Source: a virus. Taken from it: DNA of 40,262 bases. The notes under the pieces are model-generated. The model saw nothing but the letters and a program-made list of their open reading frames with translations. It did not search any database and was not told the origin of the DNA. Below, piece by piece: positions 1 to 40,262 of this stretch (positions are counted from its first letter, which is position 1; each line of letters starts with the position of its first letter). The stretch lies in IMG/VR virus record IMGVR_UViG_3300042507_003200, positions 1 through 40,262 of that record. The stretch is one strand, 5' to 3'. A program made the position numbers and the translations under genes.

Positions 1-635
1 GAGTGGCGTTGGCATCCAATCCGCATGAAGCCCTCAGTGATAAGGACCGGCCAAATCAGATTGAGAATAGAGATGGGTGCTTTAGTGAGTGTTTCACCGG
101 CCAGGTTGGCACCGTCCAGGTTGGCACGGGCCAGGTTGGCACCGGCCAGGTTGGCACCGTCCAGGTAGGCACCGTCCAGGTTGGCACCGTCCAGGTTGGC
201 ACCGGCCAGGTTGGCACCGGCCAGGTTGGCACGGGCCAGGTAGGCACCGGCCAGGTTGGCACCGGCCAGGTTGGCACGGGCCAGGTTGGCACGGGCCAGG
301 TTGGCACCGGCCAGGTTGGCACCGGCCAGGTTGGCACGGGCCAGGTAGGCACCGGCCAGGTTGGCACCGGCCAGGTTGGCACGGGCCAGGTTGGCACGGG
401 CCAGGTTGGCACGGGCCAGGTAGGCACCGGCCAGGTTGGCACCGTCCAGGTAGGCACCGGCCAGGTAGGCACCGTCCAGGTTGGCACCGGCCAGGTTGGC
501 ACGGGCCAGGTAGGCACCGGCCAGGTTGGCACGGGCAGAGACCGCAGCCTCCAGGGTCAATTTCATTGAGTTGTCCTCAGCCTCATGCGAGAACAAAATA
601 CTGCCGCTGAACCGGCACTTGATTTCAATCTTCAT
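1..635 (-). CDS. Pentapeptide-repeat protein, N-terminal part (gene continues across the window ends)
   Basis: This minus-strand gene starts at ATG 635 behind an AGGAG ribosome site and runs off the left end; on the closed circle it continues to a TGA at 39996-39994, giving 258 residues. Residues 1 to about 33 form a short leader (MKIEIKCRFSGS...), then come 29 pentapeptide repeats of the type A(N/Y)L(A/D)(G/R). Such repeats fold as a right-handed beta-helix; some family members (Qnr, MfpA) mimic DNA and bind gyrase, but this cannot be assumed here. It is the first gene behind the promoter at 683-711. The other long open frames over this repeat are artefacts of the 15-base period. The target is unknown. 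Confidence 0.9.
   Translation of the reverse strand, partial: MKIEIKCRFSGSILFSHEAEDNSMKLTLEAAVSARANLAGAYLARANLAGANLDGAYLAGAYLDGANLAGAYLARANLARANLARANLAGANLAGAYLARANLAGANLAGANLARANLARANLAGANLAGAYLARANLAGANLAGANLDGANLDGAYLDGANLAGANLARANLDGANLAGETLTKAPISILNLIWPVLITEGFMRIGCQRH
101..535. repeat. 29 tandem 15-bp repeats encoding the pentapeptides
   Basis: Twenty-nine uninterrupted units of exactly 15 bp, CCAGGTTGGCACCGG with few variants (T/A at base 7, C/G at base 13, G/T at base 14), run in register from 101 to 535. Each encodes one pentapeptide on the minus strand. Units are nearly identical even at synonymous positions, which points to recent expansion by slippage or unequal recombination. The copy number may differ between genomes or be mis-assembled. 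Confidence 0.97.
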
Positions 636-2396: not shown

Positions 2397-2643
2397 TGAG
2401 CACCTCGTCGAGCTTGGCAGCGTACCAGATGGCCTTGCGGTTATCCTCCACCGAGTCAGCTTTCTTGCCCAGGCGCCACTGATACTTGATGACCTGACCG
2501 CGCAGGAAGCCGATGAACTGCTCACGGCCCAGGGCAGCGCGGATGGCATCAATGCACTCGATGCCGTTGTCCGTCTCGGCGTAGTGCGGCGGGTGGTTGA
2601 CCATGTCCTTGACAGGCGTGGCCTTAGTGGTCTTGCGTTGCAT
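2383..2643 (-). CDS. DUF3310 protein (T7 gp1.7-like)
   Basis: The 86-residue protein carries the family signature VNHPPHY followed by GIECID and a helical region (FLRGQVIKYQWRLGKK) typical of DUF3310, the group linked to T7 gp1.7, which has nucleotide kinase activity in T7. The start at 2643 (MQRKTTKAT) has AAGGAG upstream, inside the ThyX gene. Its neighbours, ThyX upstream and several DNA enzymes downstream, agree with a nucleotide role, but kinase activity is inference. Confidence 0.85.
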   Translation of the reverse strand: MQRKTTKATPVKDMVNHPPHYAETDNGIECIDAIRAALGREQFIGFLRGQVIKYQWRLGKKADSVEDNRKAIWYAAKLDEVLNEAE

Positions 2644-3292
2644 CGAGAATCTCCTTGAGTGAGGGCATGACGTGAAGCAGGGCAAGACGGCACATGACCG
2701 CAATCTCCCGGTGCTCCTTCTGGGTGCCGTTGCCTGCACGCAGCTGAATGTAGTGGATCCAGCTCCGTACCGAGCCTGCCATGTACAACCGGCTGGGCGT
2801 CAGGCCCTCGGGCAGCACGGCTCGTGCAACCTCCTTGGCGAGACCGCGCCGCAGCGCCTCGTGGTATGAGTGCATGGCATTGTCAGCCAGGGCGTGCTGC
2901 TCTCGGTTCCACCAGTCCTGCAGGGCGTGGTCGTCGATGTCGATGCTGGCCTGACGGTTCTTGGCATCTTGCAGCCGAGCTTCACGCAGCACCGGCTCAG
3001 CATCGACCTCAGCGTAGCGCTGGCTGAACTCCTGGAAGGAGAAACTGCGGTGGCGCAGGATCTGGCGAGCGATGTCGCGGGTCGTGGTAATCTCGATGAC
3101 CGCATGGGCCATCTCAAACGGCGACCAGTGATGGTTGCGGACGAGGTAGTTCAGCAGACGAGGAGCAGTCTCGTGGTTAGCCTGGTTACTCGGGTTCGAG
3201 ACCCGGGCGCAGTAGGCAACCAGCTCCTCGCCCGTCTGAACGCCTTCCAGCTCCAACGGCTGGGTGAATGCGATCAGACGGACTTGGCTCAT
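2624..3292 (-). CDS. thyX: Flavin-dependent thymidylate synthase ThyX
   Basis: The enzyme methylates dUMP to dTMP using methylene-tetrahydrofolate and FAD. The 222-residue protein has the diagnostic ThyX motif RHRx7S at residues 80-90 (RHRSFSFQEFS), preceded by NHHWSPFEM near 53-61 and followed by the C-terminal RAGNGTQKEHRE substrate-binding segment. The length is normal for the family. The start at 3292 overlaps the preceding stop as ATGA. The phage also encodes a ThyA-family protein at 27919-28701, so true dTMP synthesis is probably assigned to ThyX. Confidence 0.95.
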   Translation of the reverse strand: MSQVRLIAFTQPLELEGVQTGEELVAYCARVSNPSNQANHETAPRLLNYLVRNHHWSPFEMAHAVIEITTTRDIARQILRHRSFSFQEFSQRYAEVDAEPVLREARLQDAKNRQASIDIDDHALQDWWNREQHALADNAMHSYHEALRRGLAKEVARAVLPEGLTPSRLYMAGSVRSWIHYIQLRAGNGTQKEHREIAVMCRLALLHVMPSLKEILDATQDH

Positions 3293-27443: not shown

Positions 27444-27917
27444 TCAAATCTCCACAAGAAGTTGCTCCCAGGCCCGTCCGGCGCCTGTCCAGAGCTCCTT
27501 GGCCGCCGAGTGCGGGTATTCCTCCACAAAGACGACCCGCTCACAACTCGTGTTGAGCAGCAGCTTGATGCACGTCATGCAGGGGCTGGCCGTCACATAG
27601 CAGGTGTGGATGCTGTAGACGTCCTTGCACTGCAGCATCGCATTCTGCTCCGCGTGGATCGCCTGGCAGCCGTCAAGGTTCGTCCCACTCGGGGACGTAA
27701 CTCCTGAGCAGGCATGGGGATGGATAACAGGACCGAAGCCCACGTCATCCACATCGTTGCAGTGAGGCTGTCCAGCCGCGACGCCGTTGTAGCCAGTGGC
27801 CAATACATGGCCCCGCGCGTTCAGCAGCACGCAGCCCACCGCTCGGCGGCAGCATGTGGTTCGTTGGGCAGTCAGCAGGGCCAGCTTCAGAGCCCATTCG
27901 TCGCGGCTGGGTCTCAT
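27444..27917 (-). CDS. dCMP deaminase
   Basis: The enzyme converts dCMP to dUMP. The 157-residue protein has the zinc-binding cytidine/deoxycytidylate deaminase signature: HAEQNAM with the catalytic glutamate, and SPCMTC with two zinc ligands (TASPCMTCIKLL). ATG 27917 (MRPSRDEWALKLALL) lies one base after the stop of the upstream gene. It is the last gene of the leftward arm and next to the ThyA-family gene, so it can feed dUMP to ThyX and remove dCMP from competing uses. Confidence 0.93.
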   Translation of the reverse strand: MRPSRDEWALKLALLTAQRTTCCRRAVGCVLLNARGHVLATGYNGVAAGQPHCNDVDDVGFGPVIHPHACSGVTSPSGTNLDGCQAIHAEQNAMLQCKDVYSIHTCYVTASPCMTCIKLLLNTSCERVVFVEEYPHSAAKELWTGAGRAWEQLLVEI

Positions 27918-27918
27918 G

Positions 27919-28701
27919 TTACAGCTCCCACCAGCGACGAATATCACCTGGCCGGCTGTCACGCAGGACCTTAAGCTCCGTCATCAGGAACTGTGGATCG
28001 TTCCAGAGCAGCTTCGGCGTGTCAGGTTGCTCGAGCACCTGGCTGCCGAGGCACAACTTGGCGTCGTCCCAGTTGCTCTCATACAGGTGGCTGCTGGCCG
28101 CCGTCAGGAACAGTTGGCCAGGCGCCACGGCGTCGGCAGTCAGGCGATGCTCATTCAGCAGCCCACACACGAGGTGGCTGAGCATGCTGAAGTTGAAGAC
28201 GTCGTACGGCACGCCCAGCCACGCATCCGAGGAACGCATGAAGACGTGGCAGTTCAGCTTGTGCTGGCGGATGTTGAAGAAGATGGCCACCGTGCAGGGC
28301 ACGTCTTTGGTCTGAGGCGGGCATTCACGCCAGATGGTCAGACCGGCTTGACGACTGTCCTCGTCGACCTGCAGCTTCTCGATGATGTACGGCAGCTGAG
28401 CCACGATCTTGGGGCCGTAGGCACCGAAGAAGCGCTCGCCATCGTCGGAGAAGTCAGCGATGCGGCTGTTGTACGGTGCGATCGTCTCCACCCGGTCGTC
28501 GCCAGACAGGATCCAGAACGCCTCGGCCACCATGAACTTGAAGCTCAGACTGCGGTCAGGCACGCGGAGCACAGGCTTACGCATGTCCACCACGATTGTG
28601 CGTTGGGGAATCTCGCGGGTCATCTTGCCGCGTGGCGCTACGCAGTCGCCGTTGGTCAAGATGTCGTTGAGGGCTTGAAGCCAGATTCGTGAAAAGTCCA
28701 T
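27919..28701 (-). CDS. Thymidylate-synthase-family enzyme, predicted dCMP hydroxymethylase or methylase
   Basis: The 260-residue protein has the ThyA fold signatures: E60 in EAFWILSGDD, R117 in DEDSRQ, catalytic C136 in DVPCTV, RSSDAWLGVPYDV at 156-168 and HLY at 205-207. At position 167 it has Asp where ThyA has the Asn (E. coli N177) that selects dUMP; phage dCMP hydroxymethylase (T4 gp42) has Asp there. The segment equivalent to the TS tryptophan 80 has no Trp. So dCMP is the likely substrate. The phage already has ThyX. GGAGG precedes ATG 28701. Confidence 0.85.
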   Translation of the reverse strand: MDFSRIWLQALNDILTNGDCVAPRGKMTREIPQRTIVVDMRKPVLRVPDRSLSFKFMVAEAFWILSGDDRVETIAPYNSRIADFSDDGERFFGAYGPKIVAQLPYIIEKLQVDEDSRQAGLTIWRECPPQTKDVPCTVAIFFNIRQHKLNCHVFMRSSDAWLGVPYDVFNFSMLSHLVCGLLNEHRLTADAVAPGQLFLTAASSHLYESNWDDAKLCLGSQVLEQPDTPKLLWNDPQFLMTELKVLRDSRPGDIRRWWEL

Positions 28702-28710
28702 TTGATCCTC

Positions 28711-29625
28711 CTAGATCAGATCCAGCAGCGGGTAACGCTGCTTGGCATTGAAGCGCTTGAACGCTTGGGGATGGGGCACAGTGGCCGCCGTGATTTTCAA
28801 CCGGTACAGCTGCTCGTAGGCCTTATTGCCCAGAGCCACGACGCGCTCGGGATTGAGGTTATGGAGCACGGACAGATCCTGATCGGCGTTCAACCACAGC
28901 ACCTGGTCTTCGCCCACGTCGACAGCATCCAGCTGGTCGGCAAGCCACTGACTGCAGCCCTCACCACTGAATGAGGCGAAGGGCCACTGATACCAGGCAT
29001 CGTTGTCCTTGCGCTCAGCGAACGCCTCACCAATCAGCACGACCCGCGCATCCCAGTTGCCAGCCGAAGCCAGCTCCAGTGGATGCTGCTGGAAGCGCAG
29101 CCGGTCTACTCCAGCGACCAAGTTGTCAGTTGTGAACAGGTCATCGACCTTGGTGTAGTCGTAGACGAGCTCAGGCAGATCGGTGACCTGGTCCGCATAG
29201 AGGTCGTAGACCATCCGCAGCTGGTCCTCGTTGTCCAGCATCTCGAGGTGCTTGCGTGCCATGTACGACAGACGCACCGCTTCCCAGCCTGGCTGGCAGC
29301 GCACGACCACAGCACCGCAGCGCATGGCCAGACGCTCAAGCATCCGCCGGCTGGCGTGAGTCAAGCGGTCCCGGCCCTCACGGAAGGCGATGCCGTAGGG
29401 CATCTCGCTCAACCAGCAGCGATCGAAGACGACGTCTTGGTAGCCCAGCAGCGCAGGCAGCATGGCTTCGACGTAGACGCGGCCCAGGCTCTTCCCCACC
29501 CGGGGGAGGGCGGAGAAGTGGACGTACTTGGCGCCGGTGGCTTCAGCGAAGGCCTGACCAGCAGTGGACTTGCCACCACCGTCCGGACCTTCGAAGATGG
29601 TCAGCTTCTTGCTCACTTGGGCCAT
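28711..29625 (-). CDS. Nucleotide kinase fused to a uracil-DNA-glycosylase-like domain
   Basis: Residues 1 to about 185 form a thymidylate-kinase-like P-loop kinase: Walker A GPDGGGKST at 13-21, DRCWLSE with D68-R69 as in dTMP and deoxynucleoside kinases, and a lid-like YMARKH. Residues about 193-304 resemble the uracil-DNA glycosylase superfamily: LIGEAF at 197-202, PFASFSGEG, VVALGNKAYEQLY at 262-274 and HPQAF at 285-289. It lies between the ThyA-family and MazG-like genes and overlaps the latter by 13 bases. It may phosphorylate a modified dNMP; the second domain's job is unknown. Confidence 0.8.
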   Translation of the reverse strand: MAQVSKKLTIFEGPDGGGKSTAGQAFAEATGAKYVHFSALPRVGKSLGRVYVEAMLPALLGYQDVVFDRCWLSEMPYGIAFREGRDRLTHASRRMLERLAMRCGAVVVRCQPGWEAVRLSYMARKHLEMLDNEDQLRMVYDLYADQVTDLPELVYDYTKVDDLFTTDNLVAGVDRLRFQQHPLELASAGNWDARVVLIGEAFAERKDNDAWYQWPFASFSGEGCSQWLADQLDAVDVGEDQVLWLNADQDLSVLHNLNPERVVALGNKAYEQLYRLKITAATVPHPQAFKRFNAKQRYPLLDLI

Positions 29626-30011
29626 GACAGAATCTCCTCCAGGCGAGCCTCAGGACCAACCCAGCCTTCAGGCTTCTTGACGTCGTAGGCGCTGCCTCGC
29701 TTCGAGTCCTCAGCCTTGGCCACGCGGACCTTGGCCATGTTGCAGGAGTGAACCGCGTGCATACCAGCGTGCCACTGGGACGGATCGACGCCCAGGAAAA
29801 GCGCCGTGCCGTAGGCCACGTAGGCCAGATCCAGCAGGGCATCGAAGGCCTTGACGCGGTCACCGTCACCCAGAGCTTCTTCCAACTCGTCGAGCTCCTC
29901 TTGCAGGAACTTCAGACGGAAGACTGTGGCGTCCAGGTTATGGGTGAGCTGATCGTCCTTGCCCAAAGGTAGGCCGAACTTCTCGTGGAACTCAGCGACA
30001 TTTCCAATCAT
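29613..30011 (-). CDS. MazG-like nucleotide pyrophosphohydrolase
   Basis: The 132-residue all-alpha protein has the EExxE motif at 38-42 (QEELDELEEAL) and a following DALLDLAYVAYG helix at 57-67, the metal-binding layout of MazG/dUTPase-dCTPase type enzymes that cleave dNTPs to dNMP. In the context of a predicted dCMP-modifying enzyme it could remove dCTP, as T4 gp56 does, but substrate is not visible in sequence. ATG 30011 shares its A with the stop of the methyltransferase. Confidence 0.82.
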   Translation of the reverse strand: MIGNVAEFHEKFGLPLGKDDQLTHNLDATVFRLKFLQEELDELEEALGDGDRVKAFDALLDLAYVAYGTALFLGVDPSQWHAGMHAVHSCNMAKVRVAKAEDSKRGSAYDVKKPEGWVGPEARLEEILSWPK

Positions 30012-30820
30012 CAAAACGGCGCTCCTTTCGTCTTGCGGGCCGCGGGCTTGACCGGCTTGCCGTCAGCTGCTTTGCGGCAGACCCACAGGTTGTTGCGGGA
30101 GTGGTCCTCATGCAGCGGACCGAAGATGTTGCTGATGGCGTCGCTGTCGAAGTACTGCTCCAGCGCCTTGCGGACTTCCAGCACAGCTGCCTTGCTGCAA
30201 CCGGTAGGGTCAACCTTGCCGATGTGCTTGATGTCCATGAACGTGCCAAAGCGGCGCTCGATGACGAAGCCAGCCTTCTCGATGGCGGCCTGGAGCTCCG
30301 GAATCTTGTACTCATGGATGTGGTTCTTGGCATGCCGCACACCGTCGTAGACCGGAGTGGACAGCAGCAGCACGCCGCCCGGCTTGGTAGCCGCGAACAT
30401 GGCCTTGAGCAGGTTGGCGCCGTGCTCGACCTTCATGTGCTCGATGACCTCGTAGTTGACGACGACATCGAAGCCCTCAGGTCGTGCCTTGAGCAGCTCC
30501 TTGTAGCGCTCAACGAAGTTGAACTCGCCATGGAACGTCAGGCGCTGAGAGGCAGACGGCTTCAGCTTGTTCAGGTCCACGCCAGTGTAGTGGTTGACGT
30601 GCGCGGCAGCACCGCCAGTTAAAATCTTGCTGAGCGGCTTGTCTTCACCGCAGCCGACCTCGAGCACGTTGTGCTTGGCCGTGATGAAGCGACGGGCGAA
30701 GCTCCAGCGAAAGAAATGACTGCTGTAGTCTCTGTGAAGCGTACGACCGTGACCAGCTTCGTGAAGTTGAGTGGTGTCGTAATCGCGATTATCGCGTGCG
30801 ACTTCTTTAGGTTTTGCCAT
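30011..30820 (-). CDS. Class I SAM-dependent methyltransferase
   Basis: The 269-residue protein has motif I VLEVGCGEDKP at 52-62, an acidic motif II (YTGVDLNKL), then VVNYEVIEHM and PGGVLLLSTPVY, typical of the Methyltransf_11/23 group. The C-terminal tail is basic (KPAARKTKGAPF). The group acts on small molecules, RNA, protein or sugars, so the target is open; proximity to nucleotide-modifying genes suggests a nucleotide, a modified base, or a virion component. GAGGT precedes ATG 30820, inside the end of the HNH gene. Confidence 0.85.
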   Translation of the reverse strand: MAKPKEVARDNRDYDTTQLHEAGHGRTLHRDYSSHFFRWSFARRFITAKHNVLEVGCGEDKPLSKILTGGAAAHVNHYTGVDLNKLKPSASQRLTFHGEFNFVERYKELLKARPEGFDVVVNYEVIEHMKVEHGANLLKAMFAATKPGGVLLLSTPVYDGVRHAKNHIHEYKIPELQAAIEKAGFVIERRFGTFMDIKHIGKVDPTGCSKAAVLEVRKALEQYFDSDAISNIFGPLHEDHSRNNLWVCRKAADGKPVKPAARKTKGAPF

Positions 30821-30822
30821 GA

Positions 30823-31269
30823 TTACCTCTTTCTAAGTGGAGTGCTCAGGGCTCTGCTGACGTCCCATCCGCACTTGATTCGTTGCTGAAATTGATTGCT
30901 TGGTACTACGCATCTTGGATCAGATCCCCATTCCGCAGCGCACTTCGTTTCGCCGTTAAATGTAAGCATCACGTTGTTGGATTTGTTCCAACAATTTTGC
31001 TGGCGGGTGACAAACCGGCAGTTATCCGGGCCGTAGCCTTTACGGTTGTCGATGCGGTCAATGTCCAATCCTGATTTGTAATCATTGGCCAAAGCCCACT
31101 TAACAAACTCAGAGCAACCACGACGGCCTGCCCATCGAGCGTCCAGTGAAATTCCTTTGGCGCCGTAGTCCTTGTAAGATCTGGATTTAGGATAGTTGCA
31201 GCGTGCATTGATTCCGCTCCAAAGAGACTGGAGCTTAACAACCGTATCTACAACTTGATCCGGGTCCAT
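30823..31269 (-). CDS. HNH endonuclease (homing type)
   Basis: The 148-residue protein fits phage HNH homing endonucleases: LWSGINARCNYPKSRSYKDY, GAKGISLDARW, then LDIDRIDNRKGYGPDNCRFV and TRQQNCWNKSN. It is a free-standing gene in the operon, starting at ATG 31269 on the upstream stop (TGATG). Its bases look richer in A+T and its codons less biased than its neighbours, a sign of recent arrival. It may cut related phages lacking it. Confidence 0.87.
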   Translation of the reverse strand: MDPDQVVDTVVKLQSLWSGINARCNYPKSRSYKDYGAKGISLDARWAGRRGCSEFVKWALANDYKSGLDIDRIDNRKGYGPDNCRFVTRQQNCWNKSNNVMLTFNGETKCAAEWGSDPRCVVPSNQFQQRIKCGWDVSRALSTPLRKR

Positions 31270-31919
31270 CACTTCACCTTGGCTTCGGGCGGGTTCATGC
31301 CCTGCTTCTTCAGGTGGTTGCGATACCACTTGACGTAGCCACGTTTCTTCTCGTCCAGGCCGAACTTCTCCTGCACCTTCTCGAAGATCTTGTCGTCGGT
31401 CAGCTTGCCTTCCATGATCAGGTCTTGGAACATCTGGGCAGCCGACTGCTTTTTCTCGCCAGTCTTCTTCGCAGGTGTCTTGACGACCGGATCGATGGCG
31501 CGGCGACCTGCCTTGACGACCTCGGTGGATTTGGTCTTGGCGGCAGTTTTTGCCGGCGCGGCCTTCTTGGTTACGGGCTTGGCGGCAGTCTTCTCGGCGG
31601 CCGCGGCTTTCTTGGTGGTTGCCATTTCTAGCTCCTGTTTACTCACGTTGATGATCTGGCCCAGGTAATCCAAGGCCTCCTTGGTCGCCCCGATGTTCTG
31701 GCTGTAGCTCAGGTAGAGCTGGCAGGCCTTCTCAGCGGGGTATCCTTCCATCGGCGTGAACCGCTGGTCGAATGACTCCGCCGACGTCTTCTGGACTTCG
31801 AGTCCAGTGCTAACGTCGAGCGGAATATACTTGACATGCCCATTGACGCGCTCGACCTGAATGCAGGTGCGACGCTGATGGTCATGGTACGGCATGACGA
31901 CTAAATTCTTCTTGGCCAT
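31269..31919 (-). CDS. Protein with histone H1-like basic linker and shared C-terminal domain
   Basis: Residues 1-98 are a mixed soluble domain; about 99-157 is a lysine-alanine-proline linker (KKAAPAKTAAKTKSTE) like bacterial H1 tails; 159-211 is a helical domain (AAQMFQDLIMEGKLTDDKIF, then KFGLDEKKRGYVKWYRNHLK). The C-terminal domain recurs in the gene at 32274-32747. DNA binding is likely from composition; function is unknown. GGAGAAG precedes ATG 31919. Confidence 0.75.
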   Translation of the reverse strand: MAKKNLVVMPYHDHQRRTCIQVERVNGHVKYIPLDVSTGLEVQKTSAESFDQRFTPMEGYPAEKACQLYLSYSQNIGATKEALDYLGQIINVSKQELEMATTKKAAAAEKTAAKPVTKKAAPAKTAAKTKSTEVVKAGRRAIDPVVKTPAKKTGEKKQSAAQMFQDLIMEGKLTDDKIFEKVQEKFGLDEKKRGYVKWYRNHLKKQGMNPPEAKVK

Positions 31920-32273: not shown

Positions 32274-32747
32274 TTAGGCGTCCTGGGGCAGGCGGCCGGT
32301 GCGCTTCATTTCGCAGCGATACCACGTGGGGTAGTGGCGCTTGGAGTTGTCCAGATTGAACTTCTCCTTGATCACGTCCCAGACCTCTTGGTTAGTCTTG
32401 CCGTCGAGGATCAGGGCACGTGCCGTGGCCGAGATGCCCTCGCGCTTCGGCGCAGCTGTCTTTGGTTCAGCAACTTTGAAACGACGACCATCTACTTTGG
32501 GGGTGTCCTTATCACCAGAAGTGAAGACAACGTTTTGCTTCTTGGCAGGTGCCTTGGCCGCAGGCTGCTTCAGCGACTGGAGATGGAGCTCAGCCATGGC
32601 GACCTTGCACGCGAAACGACCGTCAGTCATCTTCTCGATGAAGAAGTCGTAGTCGCGTGCTTGGATGCCCAGCTTGCGCAGGATGGTGGTGGCGGAATCG
32701 CGACGAGCAAGGATCTTGACGGCGTTGGCTTGGATGGTCTTGGACAT
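32274..32747 (-). CDS. Second H1-like protein, paralogue of the one at 31269-31919
   Basis: The 157-residue protein has an N-terminal helical domain (1-55), a basic linker (QPAAKAPAKKQN, VAEPKTAAPKREG) and the shared C-terminal domain at 104-154 (ALILDGKTNQEVWDVIKEKF, then NSKRHYPTWYRCEMKRTGRL). It is the first gene after promoter P3, so it is probably well expressed. It may bind or compact DNA. Confidence 0.75.
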   Translation of the reverse strand: MSKTIQANAVKILARRDSATTILRKLGIQARDYDFFIEKMTDGRFACKVAMAELHLQSLKQPAAKAPAKKQNVVFTSGDKDTPKVDGRRFKVAEPKTAAPKREGISATARALILDGKTNQEVWDVIKEKFNLDNSKRHYPTWYRCEMKRTGRLPQDA

Positions 32748-38315: not shown

Positions 38316-39161
38316 TCAGTACTTGCGAGCTGCGCGCTTGGCTACAGGCTTCTGAGCGGCACGGCTGCCACGCTTCGGAGGCGGAGCAGCTTCTTCCTCA
38401 TTCGGCTGGTACGGGAAGTCGATGGTGGACTTGGCTTCCTCGTGACGCTTCATGATGGCGCCCATGAGCTCGTCGGGCAAGTTCATGATGGGCTCGAAGA
38501 CCACCTTGAACTGGCTCTTCGGATCAGGCACGACCTTGACCTTGGTCACGATGCCGAAGGGCGGGCGACGCAGGGCACCAGCCACCTGCTTGACGAAGCT
38601 GGCGTAGCCCTTGACGGACGTGACAGGCAGCTTCATGAAGCCGATGGCCGTGGATTCGAAGTGCTCATCATCTTCAATGAGCTCGAACTTGCCAGCCTGG
38701 TTGAAGGTACCGGCCGGAATCAGCGCCAGCCGGCGGGTGTTGCGGCAAGCCTTGCCCCGGCCGGTATCTGCCGAGCCCCACTCGTTCATCTCGCAGCCGT
38801 CGCACAGGCCAGAGGCGCCGCACTGTTGGTTGCCTGCATCGATGACGATCTGATGTGGAGCCAGCGTCTTCTCTTCGCGGCCGAATGCGAAGCACACCGG
38901 GCCTTGAGGAGTGTCGGGGTCGTACTTGCCTTCGTAGAAGACATTCTCCAGCACCGAGTCCAGGATGACGACGGCCATCTGGTTGTTCGGCAACGGAGCG
39001 TCTTGCCAGCTGAGAATGCCGGACTTGAGACTGAAGAACTGACCTCCGCCGGTGTTGGCTTCCATGCCAGCTGCGACTTCAGCTTGCTTAGCGAGCTCTT
39101 CGTCCCATTTGACGAGGGCGGTGGTCTTGGATGCTGCGGGTTTCTTTGTAGCCATGATCAT
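38316..39161 (-). CDS. Putative single-stranded-DNA-binding or replication protein with cysteine cluster
   Basis: The 281-residue protein has a beta-rich first half (QMAVVILDSVLENVFYEG, PVCFAFGREEKTL), a four-cysteine cluster (CGASGLCDGC...GKACRNTRR) that may bind zinc, and a basic tail (KRGSRAAQKPVAKRAARKY). I recall similar proteins beside polymerases in other phages, where an OB-fold single-strand-binding role is suspected. It is cut off from the polymerase genes by a strong terminator, in line with the high dosage an SSB needs. AAGGA lies before ATG 39161; ATG 39155 is possible. Confidence 0.65.
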   Translation of the reverse strand: MIMATKKPAASKTTALVKWDEELAKQAEVAAGMEANTGGGQFFSLKSGILSWQDAPLPNNQMAVVILDSVLENVFYEGKYDPDTPQGPVCFAFGREEKTLAPHQIVIDAGNQQCGASGLCDGCEMNEWGSADTGRGKACRNTRRLALIPAGTFNQAGKFELIEDDEHFESTAIGFMKLPVTSVKGYASFVKQVAGALRRPPFGIVTKVKVVPDPKSQFKVVFEPIMNLPDELMGAIMKRHEEAKSTIDFPYQPNEEEAAPPPKRGSRAAQKPVAKRAARKY

Positions 39162-40001: not shown

Positions 40002-40262
40002 TTTGGTTCTCCTTAGTGATGGCATGGTTATCGCACATAGCCAGCAAAGGAGCTTTCCACTGTGCCCAAAATTCGATTGCACGACTTTCCATACGACTGA
40101 TGGTACCGTCATCGAAGGATTTCCACTCCTTGTGGGAGTGGCGTTGGCATCCAATCCGCATGAAGCCCTCAGTGATAAGGACCGGCCAAATCAGATTGAG
40201 AATAGAGATGGGTGCTTTAGTGAGTGTTTCACCGGCCAGGTTGGCACCGTCCAGGTTGGCAC
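39994..40262 (-). CDS. Pentapeptide-repeat protein, C-terminal part (continues from the left end)
   Basis: This is the end of the gene that starts at 635. After the last repeats (near 40262-40229) the protein has a non-repeat C-terminal domain of about 75 residues: TKAPISILNLIWPVLITEGF, then GCQRHSHKEWKSFDDG and FWAQWKAPLLAMCDNH. This tail is conserved in pentapeptide proteins of other phages. The TGA at 39996-39994 overlaps the start of the next gene. Bases 40136-40262 duplicate 1-127. Confidence 0.9.
   Translation of the reverse strand, partial: ANLDGANLAGETLTKAPISILNLIWPVLITEGFMRIGCQRHSHKEWKSFDDGTISRMESRAIEFWAQWKAPLLAMCDNHAITKENQNG
40136..40262. repeat. 127-bp terminal direct repeat (copy of 1-127)
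   Basis: The sequence is identical to bases 1-127. A length of exactly 127 is typical of the k-mer overlap at the ends of a circular assembly graph, so this is probably an assembly overlap that shows the genome is circularly permuted or circular, not a physical terminal repeat. Confidence 0.95.

Follow-up and report, generated by a model that had tools for sequence, protein, structure and literature searches.

Does the phage behind a 40,262-nucleotide viral sequence (IMG/VR record IMGVR_UViG_3300042507_003200; the whole stretch is the window here) replace the cytosine of its DNA, and with what? The question is raised by five genes on the minus strand at 27444-30820. In order of transcription, they encode a methyltransferase (MT), a PRA-PH/MazG-like pyrophosphatase, a P-loop kinase, a ThyA-family enzyme, and a dCMP deaminase. 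MT, gene 1 of the cassette (30011..30820, 269 aa), is a class I SAM-dependent methyltransferase (Pfam PF13489, E=7.7e-14). The pyrophosphatase (29613..30014, 133 aa; PF01503, E=3.3e-11; PHROG 671) is an all-alpha NTP pyrophosphohydrolase and a predicted dCTPase. The kinase is part of a two-domain protein with a UDG-like domain (28711..29625, 304 aa; PHROG 761 "thymidylate kinase," E=9.1e-13) and is the predicted 5-hydroxymethyl-dCMP kinase. It is followed by the ThyA-family enzyme, a putative pyrimidine hydroxymethylase (27919..28701, 260 aa; PF00303, E=7.4e-23), and the deaminase (27444..27914; PF00383, E=8.8e-20; PHROG 174 dCMP deaminase, E=1.8e-35). The five adjacent genes named in a sequence-only reading of this DNA are thus all present as minus-strand ORFs with Pfam or PHROG support. 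They are packed head to tail: the MT and pyrophosphatase ORFs overlap by 4 nt and the pyrophosphatase and kinase ORFs by 13 nt, and a gap of 9 nt separates the kinase from the ThyA-family gene. The deaminase ORF is open back to a GTG at 27962, but its start is probably the ATG at 27914, directly past the ThyA stop. A sixth gene relevant to the argument, omitted from the earlier reading, encodes a flavin-dependent thymidylate synthase, ThyX (2624..3292, minus strand, 222 aa; PF02511, E=2.9e-39; PHROG 85). The window also encodes a P22-like portal and head and, at 38316-39161, a 281-aa protein. Its first 127 bases are identical to its last 127, pointing to a circular assembly that is complete at ~40,135 bp; the genome is apparently complete, at about 40.1 kb.

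Phage AXL3 (protein identities of 38-71%) and dozens of IMG/VR contigs carry the same five genes in identical order, and we therefore dismissed a chance arrangement. The cluster had been taken for an independent version of the pathway in a compact phage; the cassette is real, but it is widespread across podo- and siphovirus-like genomes rather than private to this one. AXL3 (Stenotrophomonas) and PW916 (Pseudoxanthomonas) share with the window the five genes in order (ThyA-family enzyme 55% identical, MT 70-71%), a helicase, and a polymerase. AXL3 also has a homologous primase and an annotated ThyX-type gene; it is a siphovirus, whereas the window phage has a P22-like portal and head. AXL3 DNA resisted 35 of 37 restriction enzymes, and only TasI and Tru1I, with A/T-only sites, cut it (PMC7504290). 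Taken alone, this digestion pattern does not separate 5-hydroxymethylcytosine (hmC), decorated hmC, 5-methylcytosine (5mC), or a change of G. No QueC or TGT homologue (7-deazaguanine) was detected in AXL3, PW916, MW202621, the window, or four other relatives, which argues against such a guanine change behind the resistance, although other G modifications are possible. Our literature search found nothing on the base composition of phage G.

What does the ThyA-family enzyme act on, and what does it make? Its Asp167 falls at the position of Asn177 in E. coli ThyA and of Asp179 in T4 gp42, which bears out the proposal that it replaces the substrate-selecting Asn. The key residues, Asp133, Cys136, Thr137, and Asp167, correspond to D143/C146/T147/D177 in E. 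coli ThyA numbering, and this T4 gp42 pattern, together with E58, is present in 45/45 aligned relatives. In T4 dCH, Asp177 selects cytosine, and the Asp that precedes the Cys by three residues activates the water for its attack (PMC6400193). At positions 143/146/147/177, thymidylate synthase has L/C/H/N, the dUMP hydroxymethylases D/C/N/N, and genus-mates of Xp12 N/C/P/D; for the last type, DLP4 and DoCa6 stand in for Xp12 and Bosa. Asp143 is common to the hydroxymethylases of T4, SPO1, ViI, and M6, while E. coli ThyA has Leu and DLP4 and DoCa6 have Asn. The window enzyme has Asp and Thr where dUMP hydroxymethylases have Asn177 and Asn147. What it does have, as do all 45 relatives at each position, are the residues of a cytosine-type hydroxymethylase: Cys136, the Glu58 equivalent, Asp167, and Asp133. 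Going by sequence, we predict that it is a dCMP 5-hydroxymethylase, its Asp143/Thr147/Asp177 pattern pointing to 5-hydroxymethyl-dCMP as the product rather than 5-methyl-dCMP. One residue speaks against this: the position of the T4 signature Ser94 (Ser94-x-Tyr96) is Gly in 45/45 relatives, and we therefore leave the protein outside the T4 dCH (gp42) lineage. This Ser is, however, not general to hydroxymethylases, being Gly also in ViI and M6 and Ala in SPO1. In a tree, the protein is only distantly related to gp42, which sits on an extremely long branch that is not firmly placed.

We infer that the cassette replaces cytosine with hmC in the phage DNA, and we consider it very likely that virions carry this base. 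The pyrophosphatase would convert dCTP to dCMP, which the ThyA-family enzyme, using methylene-tetrahydrofolate, would turn into 5-hydroxymethyl-dCMP. The P-loop kinase would then add the first phosphate en route to the triphosphate, and the polymerase would insert 5-hydroxymethyl-dCTP opposite G. Leftover dCMP would be deaminated to dUMP, from which ThyX would make dTMP. An independent selection of modified-cytosine DNA recovered PF00303 with Asp177, PF01503, PF00383, and PF14437 together (PMC8670742), and the window enzymes belong to these families. The window pyrophosphatase matches PF01503 only; in one relative (L051), the same slot holds a protein of PF08761, the Pfam family also matched by T4 gp56. 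Dihydrofolate reductase (DHFR) was undetected in the window and in 50 relatives. The presence of ThyX with DHFR undetected is expected if the ThyA-family enzyme does not oxidise folate, but DHFR absence alone is a weak marker, since L119, a predicted methylase, is likewise without a detected DHFR.

The kinase is weakly recognised by Pfam (PF02223, E=0.048) and had no match to PF21448, the T4 gp1-type dNMP kinase, at E<=0.1. Its AF2 model (pLDDT 92.5) has a thymidylate-kinase-like fold and matches YorR (Z 14.0, 165 residues, rmsd 3.5). This N-terminal domain covers residues ~3-190; the C-terminal part, ~181-304, is UDG-superfamily-like. Of 10 members, 5 match PF03167 in the latter part, the best at E=2e-4; the window member scores 20.1 bits, below the Pfam cut-off of 24.3. 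A PDB profile search gave no credible match for the UDG-like domain, and the results of the structure searches were filled by the kinase domain. The ThyA gene downstream of the kinase carries Asp177 in all 78 callable loci. The fusion of kinase and UDG-like domains and its linkage to Asp177 are new in this analysis, as are the linkage of MT to such an enzyme and the lack of detected glucosyl- and carbamoyltransferases described below. Our working guess is that the UDG-like domain, which belongs to the cassette through linkage, recognises or removes a wrong pyrimidine. Counting against the proposed pathway, a DUF1599-like protein takes the place of the kinase in 13 loci examined, so that, barring a host kinase acting in its stead, the kinase cannot be an absolute requirement.

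A further question is whether hmC is the final base or a mere intermediate that MT or another enzyme modifies further, for example, to 5-methoxymethylcytosine. We regard this as possible, at perhaps a one-in-four level of belief. MT was found in only 4 distinct phages of a 50,697-record phage collection, all 4 of which have the cassette, and the D177 enzyme is near MT in 58 of 64 IMG/VR loci, the remaining loci being mostly truncated. Among the families searched, the window gave no match to a glucosyl- or carbamoyltransferase, and in 50 relatives we found no carbamoyltransferase, no GT1 glucosyltransferase, and a single GT2; a T4 AGT model matched nothing, controls included, and is uninformative. 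The AF2 model of MT (pLDDT 83.6; as with the kinase, rows from annotated records were left out of the underlying alignment) best matches CmoM, which methylates a C5 substituent of uridine. However, this match (Z 18.8) is tied with several others, and unrelated methyltransferases of small molecules score within 1 Z unit of it, so the substrate cannot be read from the fold. Many kinase-ThyA loci, mostly distant ones, also have no MT within 5 kb. As a working guess, MT, part of the cassette through linkage, modifies the hmC nucleotide or hmC DNA; it is our leading candidate for a further decoration of hmC, one not yet described. A more specific version, in which MT methylates the hydroxyl of hmC (as a nucleotide or within DNA) and the phages end up with 5-methoxymethylcytosine or some other methylated form of hmC, seems to us rather unlikely, and we found no description of such bases for phages in the literature.

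Returning to hmC as the product, we find 5mC, as in Xanthomonas phage Xp12, very improbable. In its favor, Asp177 alone converts thymidylate synthase to a dCMP methylase, according to work cited in PMC8670742, and restriction resistance like that of AXL3 would look alike (PMC7504290; AXL1/Xp12, PMC9206674). But residues 143/147 disfavor it: the window enzyme has Asp143/Thr147, the former shared with the hydroxymethylases, in place of the Asn143/Pro147 of DLP4 and DoCa6. The DHFR gene that adjoins the enzyme gene in DLP4 is undetected in the window, a point of little weight alone given L119. Nor does MT help: at E<=0.1, it matched only general class I methyltransferase families and none of the DNA-methyltransferase families (e.g., PF00145, PF01555), and it therefore lends no support to 5mC. 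Of the two bases offered by the sequence-only reading, then, 5-hydroxymethylcytosine stands as the predicted product (Asp133, no DHFR detected), while 5mC is disfavored.

The authors of the AXL3 study read the nucleotide cluster as dTMP synthesis (PMC7504290), and the annotation names fit an ordinary supply route, dCMP to dUMP to dTMP to dTDP. We hold this to be still less probable, and reject thymidylate supply as the job of the ThyA-family enzyme: it has Asp for Asn177, Thr for His147, and no E. coli-type C-terminal tail, the phage also has ThyX, and enzymes with G/C sites fail to cut AXL3 DNA. Action on CMP for a small molecule can be set aside as the least credible reading, for although MilA is the best PDB sequence match, ahead of thymidylate synthases, its ribose-preference residues Lys133 and Ala176 (PMC5175136) are Arg and Ser in 45/45 members (R126 and S167 in E. 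coli numbering, the deoxy-specific type), and the genes sit in a replication module.

If hmC replacement is right, replacing cytosine by T4-like logic would be widespread among small phages of podo- and siphovirus-like type, whose genes for it often carry thymidylate-synthesis annotations, and the 143/147/177 pattern would allow the base to be read from the sequence. Cytosine-modifying phages could then be recognised by using the kinase-UDG-like protein as a marker, and the linked MT may point to further base modification. The modification is also relevant to restriction, to Cas9, and to modification-dependent defence against these phages. Since AXL3 has been isolated, the prediction can be put to a direct test.

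How does the cassette compare with known systems? The dUMP hydroxymethylases (SPO1 gp29, ViI, M6) are hydroxymethylating ThyA relatives that share Asp143 and Cys146 but differ in Asn177, Asn147, and their dUMP substrate. Xp12-type 5mC phages (Bosavirus) share a deaminase adjoining an Asp177 ThyA-family enzyme and a pyrophosphohydrolase; they differ in Asn143/Pro147 and a linked DHFR (DLP4). Homologues of MT and the kinase-UDG protein were found nowhere in the 50,697-record collection outside cassette carriers. The modified-cytosine contigs of MetaGPA (PMC8670742) share the Asp177 ThyA with PF01503 and PF00383/PF14437 domains; that study followed a carbamoyltransferase partner, undetected in the window and 50 relatives, and the passages of it covered here do not feature the kinase-UDG protein or MT. 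The analogy to T4 drawn by the sequence-only reading holds in logic, but the kinase and pyrophosphatase are only functional counterparts of gp1 and gp56, from different Pfam families: the kinase resembles thymidylate kinases, carries a UDG-like domain, and does not match PF21448, and the pyrophosphatase is PF01503, not PF08761. The window would also make dTMP by ThyX instead of ThyA, and it has a methyltransferase where no glucosyltransferase was detected. What the predicted pathway shares with the T4 hmC pathway (gp42, gp1, gp56, deaminase, td) is the ThyA fold with the D143/T147/D177 pattern of gp42, dCTP removal, dCMP hydroxymethylation and phosphorylation, deamination of spare dCMP, and a separate source of dTMP.

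The IMG/VR virus record is 40,262 bp long and is probably a complete genome with a circular map, about 40,135 bp in size, since the same 127-bp sequence stands at both termini (window 1-127 and 40136-40262). The sequence-only reading had placed five adjacent genes at 27444-30820, and this holds: all five are on the minus strand and begin with a methyltransferase (MT; 30011-30820), which is followed in the direction of transcription by a pyrophosphatase of the PRA-PH/MazG-like type (29613-30014), a P-loop kinase (28711-29625), an enzyme of the ThyA family (27919-28701), and finally a dCMP deaminase (27444 to about 27914), with neighboring ORFs overlapping or almost abutting. This strand also encodes DNA polymerase, an SNF2-type helicase, two exonucleases, an ATP-dependent ligase, primase, and ThyX; a P22-like portal and head module occupies the plus strand. 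The replication module includes a T4 endonuclease V-type pyrimidine dimer glycosylase (PF03013; 39244-39606). Upstream of MT is an HNH endonuclease (30823-31329), probably mobile, that is missing at that site in most relatives and 71% identical in two of them (L056/L057). The gene beyond it (31269-31919), which directly precedes MT in nearly all relatives, encodes a Lys/Ala-rich protein whose C-terminal region is shared with the 32274-32747 protein (PHROG 17205, function unknown).

To predict the substrate and product of the ThyA-family enzyme, we aligned it with relatives and reference enzymes from annotated records, later enlarging the set, and compared residues 143/146/147/177 (E. coli ThyA numbering). 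E. coli ThyA has L/C/H/N, and the dUMP hydroxymethylases of SPO1, ViI, and M6 have D/C/N/N. The window enzyme is D/C/T/D, as is T4 gp42, and this pattern is common to all 45 members of its family. Asp177 is known to select cytosine, and the water that yields the hydroxymethyl group is activated by the Asp located three residues ahead of the Cys (PMC6400193). We therefore predict that the enzyme converts dCMP into 5-hydroxymethyl-dCMP, not 5-methyl-dCMP. Thus, of the two bases proposed from sequence, 5-hydroxymethylcytosine (hmC) is favored over 5-methylcytosine; N/C/P/D is the pattern in DLP4 and DoCa6, which belong to the same genus as Xp12, a phage with 5-methylcytosine. Arg and Ser at the two aligned MilA sugar positions (PMC5175136) point to dCMP rather than CMP as the likely substrate. 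Ser94, a proposed T4 signature, is Gly in the window enzyme. Because the dUMP hydroxymethylases have Gly (two) or Ala (SPO1) there, we treat Ser94 as a presumptive feature of the T4 lineage, to which we do not assign the window protein; the tree of ThyA-family proteins does not place gp42 firmly.

A profile scan with the kinase returned 80 loci, 79 of which have a ThyA-family gene directly downstream. Residue 177 was readable in 78 of these genes, which include close relatives and are not 78 independent events, and was Asp in every one: 75 are D/C/T/D, one is D/C/H/D (L120), one is D/X/T/D (L138, ambiguous base), and one is L/C/H/D (L119). The L119 protein (L119:5776-6756), within a kinase-pyrophosphatase-deaminase cassette, is otherwise thymidylate synthase-like with a single Asn177-to-Asp change. 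It appears to be the natural equivalent of a dCMP methylase mutant made in the laboratory, and the ThyA slot may therefore switch between hydroxymethylation and methylation. The pairing recurs in Actinomycetia phage DSL-LC01 and in phage G (kinase-like gp315, by structural match; deaminase gp317; D/C/T/D gp319).

The predicted kinase structure (pLDDT, 92.5) matches thymidylate kinase-like folds, best YorR (Z 14.0, 165 residues, rmsd 3.5). Its C-terminal 120 residues are UDG superfamily-like, with weak Pfam matches in 5 of 10 members. Judging by gene content, the kinase is not indispensable to the cassette, since a DUF1599-like protein ("nucleotide modification associated domain 1"; 110 to 145 aa, below the Pfam cutoff) fills its slot in 13 loci examined (e.g., L031:9196-9588, L051:9547-9918, and L071:9193-9567). 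Separate parts of the PHROG 18404 profile match this protein and the window pyrophosphatase, which suggests that the two are fused elsewhere. The pyrophosphatase itself belongs to PF01503. At L051:9225-9593, its slot holds a dUTPase_2 protein (PF08761), the Pfam family also matched by the T4 gp56 dCTPase, which by analogy supports a predicted dCTPase role.

The MT is similarly linked. Its profile scan gave 64 loci, 58 with a D/C/T/D enzyme within the fetched stretch; four of the other six end <600 bp from MT, and the last two (34 to 40% identical) lack the enzyme in the 5 kb downstream and are cut off upstream. In a 50,697-record phage collection, MT was present in four distinct phages, each of which carries the cassette. 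Contig L223 also has the cassette, with an MT that is 89% identical; it is filed as a Lentisphaera MAG and is probably of phage origin, binned with a bacterium. MT matches general class I methyltransferase families only, and its structural matches (best CmoM, Z 18.8; others within one Z unit) do not tell its substrate. Among 50 relatives, we detected no carbamoyltransferase or GT1 and a single GT2 protein; should these phages decorate their hmC, MT is therefore the most obvious candidate. We give such decoration by MT a low probability.

The isolated Stenotrophomonas phage AXL3 has the five genes in identical order and a D/C/T/D enzyme. Its DNA resisted 35 of 37 restriction enzymes and was cut by TasI (AATT) and Tru1I (TTAA) only; its authors read the nucleotide cluster as dTMP synthesis (PMC7504290). 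The window encodes ThyX (PF02511, E = 2.9e-39), the phage's own dTMP synthase, which works without DHFR, and no DHFR was detected there; another thymidylate synthase would only duplicate ThyX. The dUMP for ThyX could come from the deaminase. Known 7-deazaguanine chemistry is unlikely in AXL3, since we detected no QueC or TGT homologue in it. An independent environmental selection for modified-cytosine DNA recovered Asp177 ThyA-family proteins, with PF01503, PF00383, and PF14437 on the same contigs (PMC8670742); the window enzymes match the families described there.

Related enzymes occur in other phages. The annotated thymidylate synthases of pelagiphages HTVC200P (L020:8354-9172) and HTVC119P (L021:8493-9341) are D/C/T/D, and these phages thus may also contain hmC. 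In Brevibacterium phage LuckyBarnes (L078:3962-5515), the ThyA-family enzyme that adjoins two annotated HMC glucosyltransferases has Asn177, as in the dUMP type, so the base that is glucosylated may be hmU instead of hmC.

Our analysis supports the T4-like cytosine pathway first proposed, narrowed to hmC; we infer the reactions of the cassette from sequence and from the restriction pattern of AXL3. The window system would work like that of T4, but its kinase and pyrophosphatase belong to other families, it has ThyX where T4 has ThyA, and it includes two further linked components, MT and the UDG-like domain.
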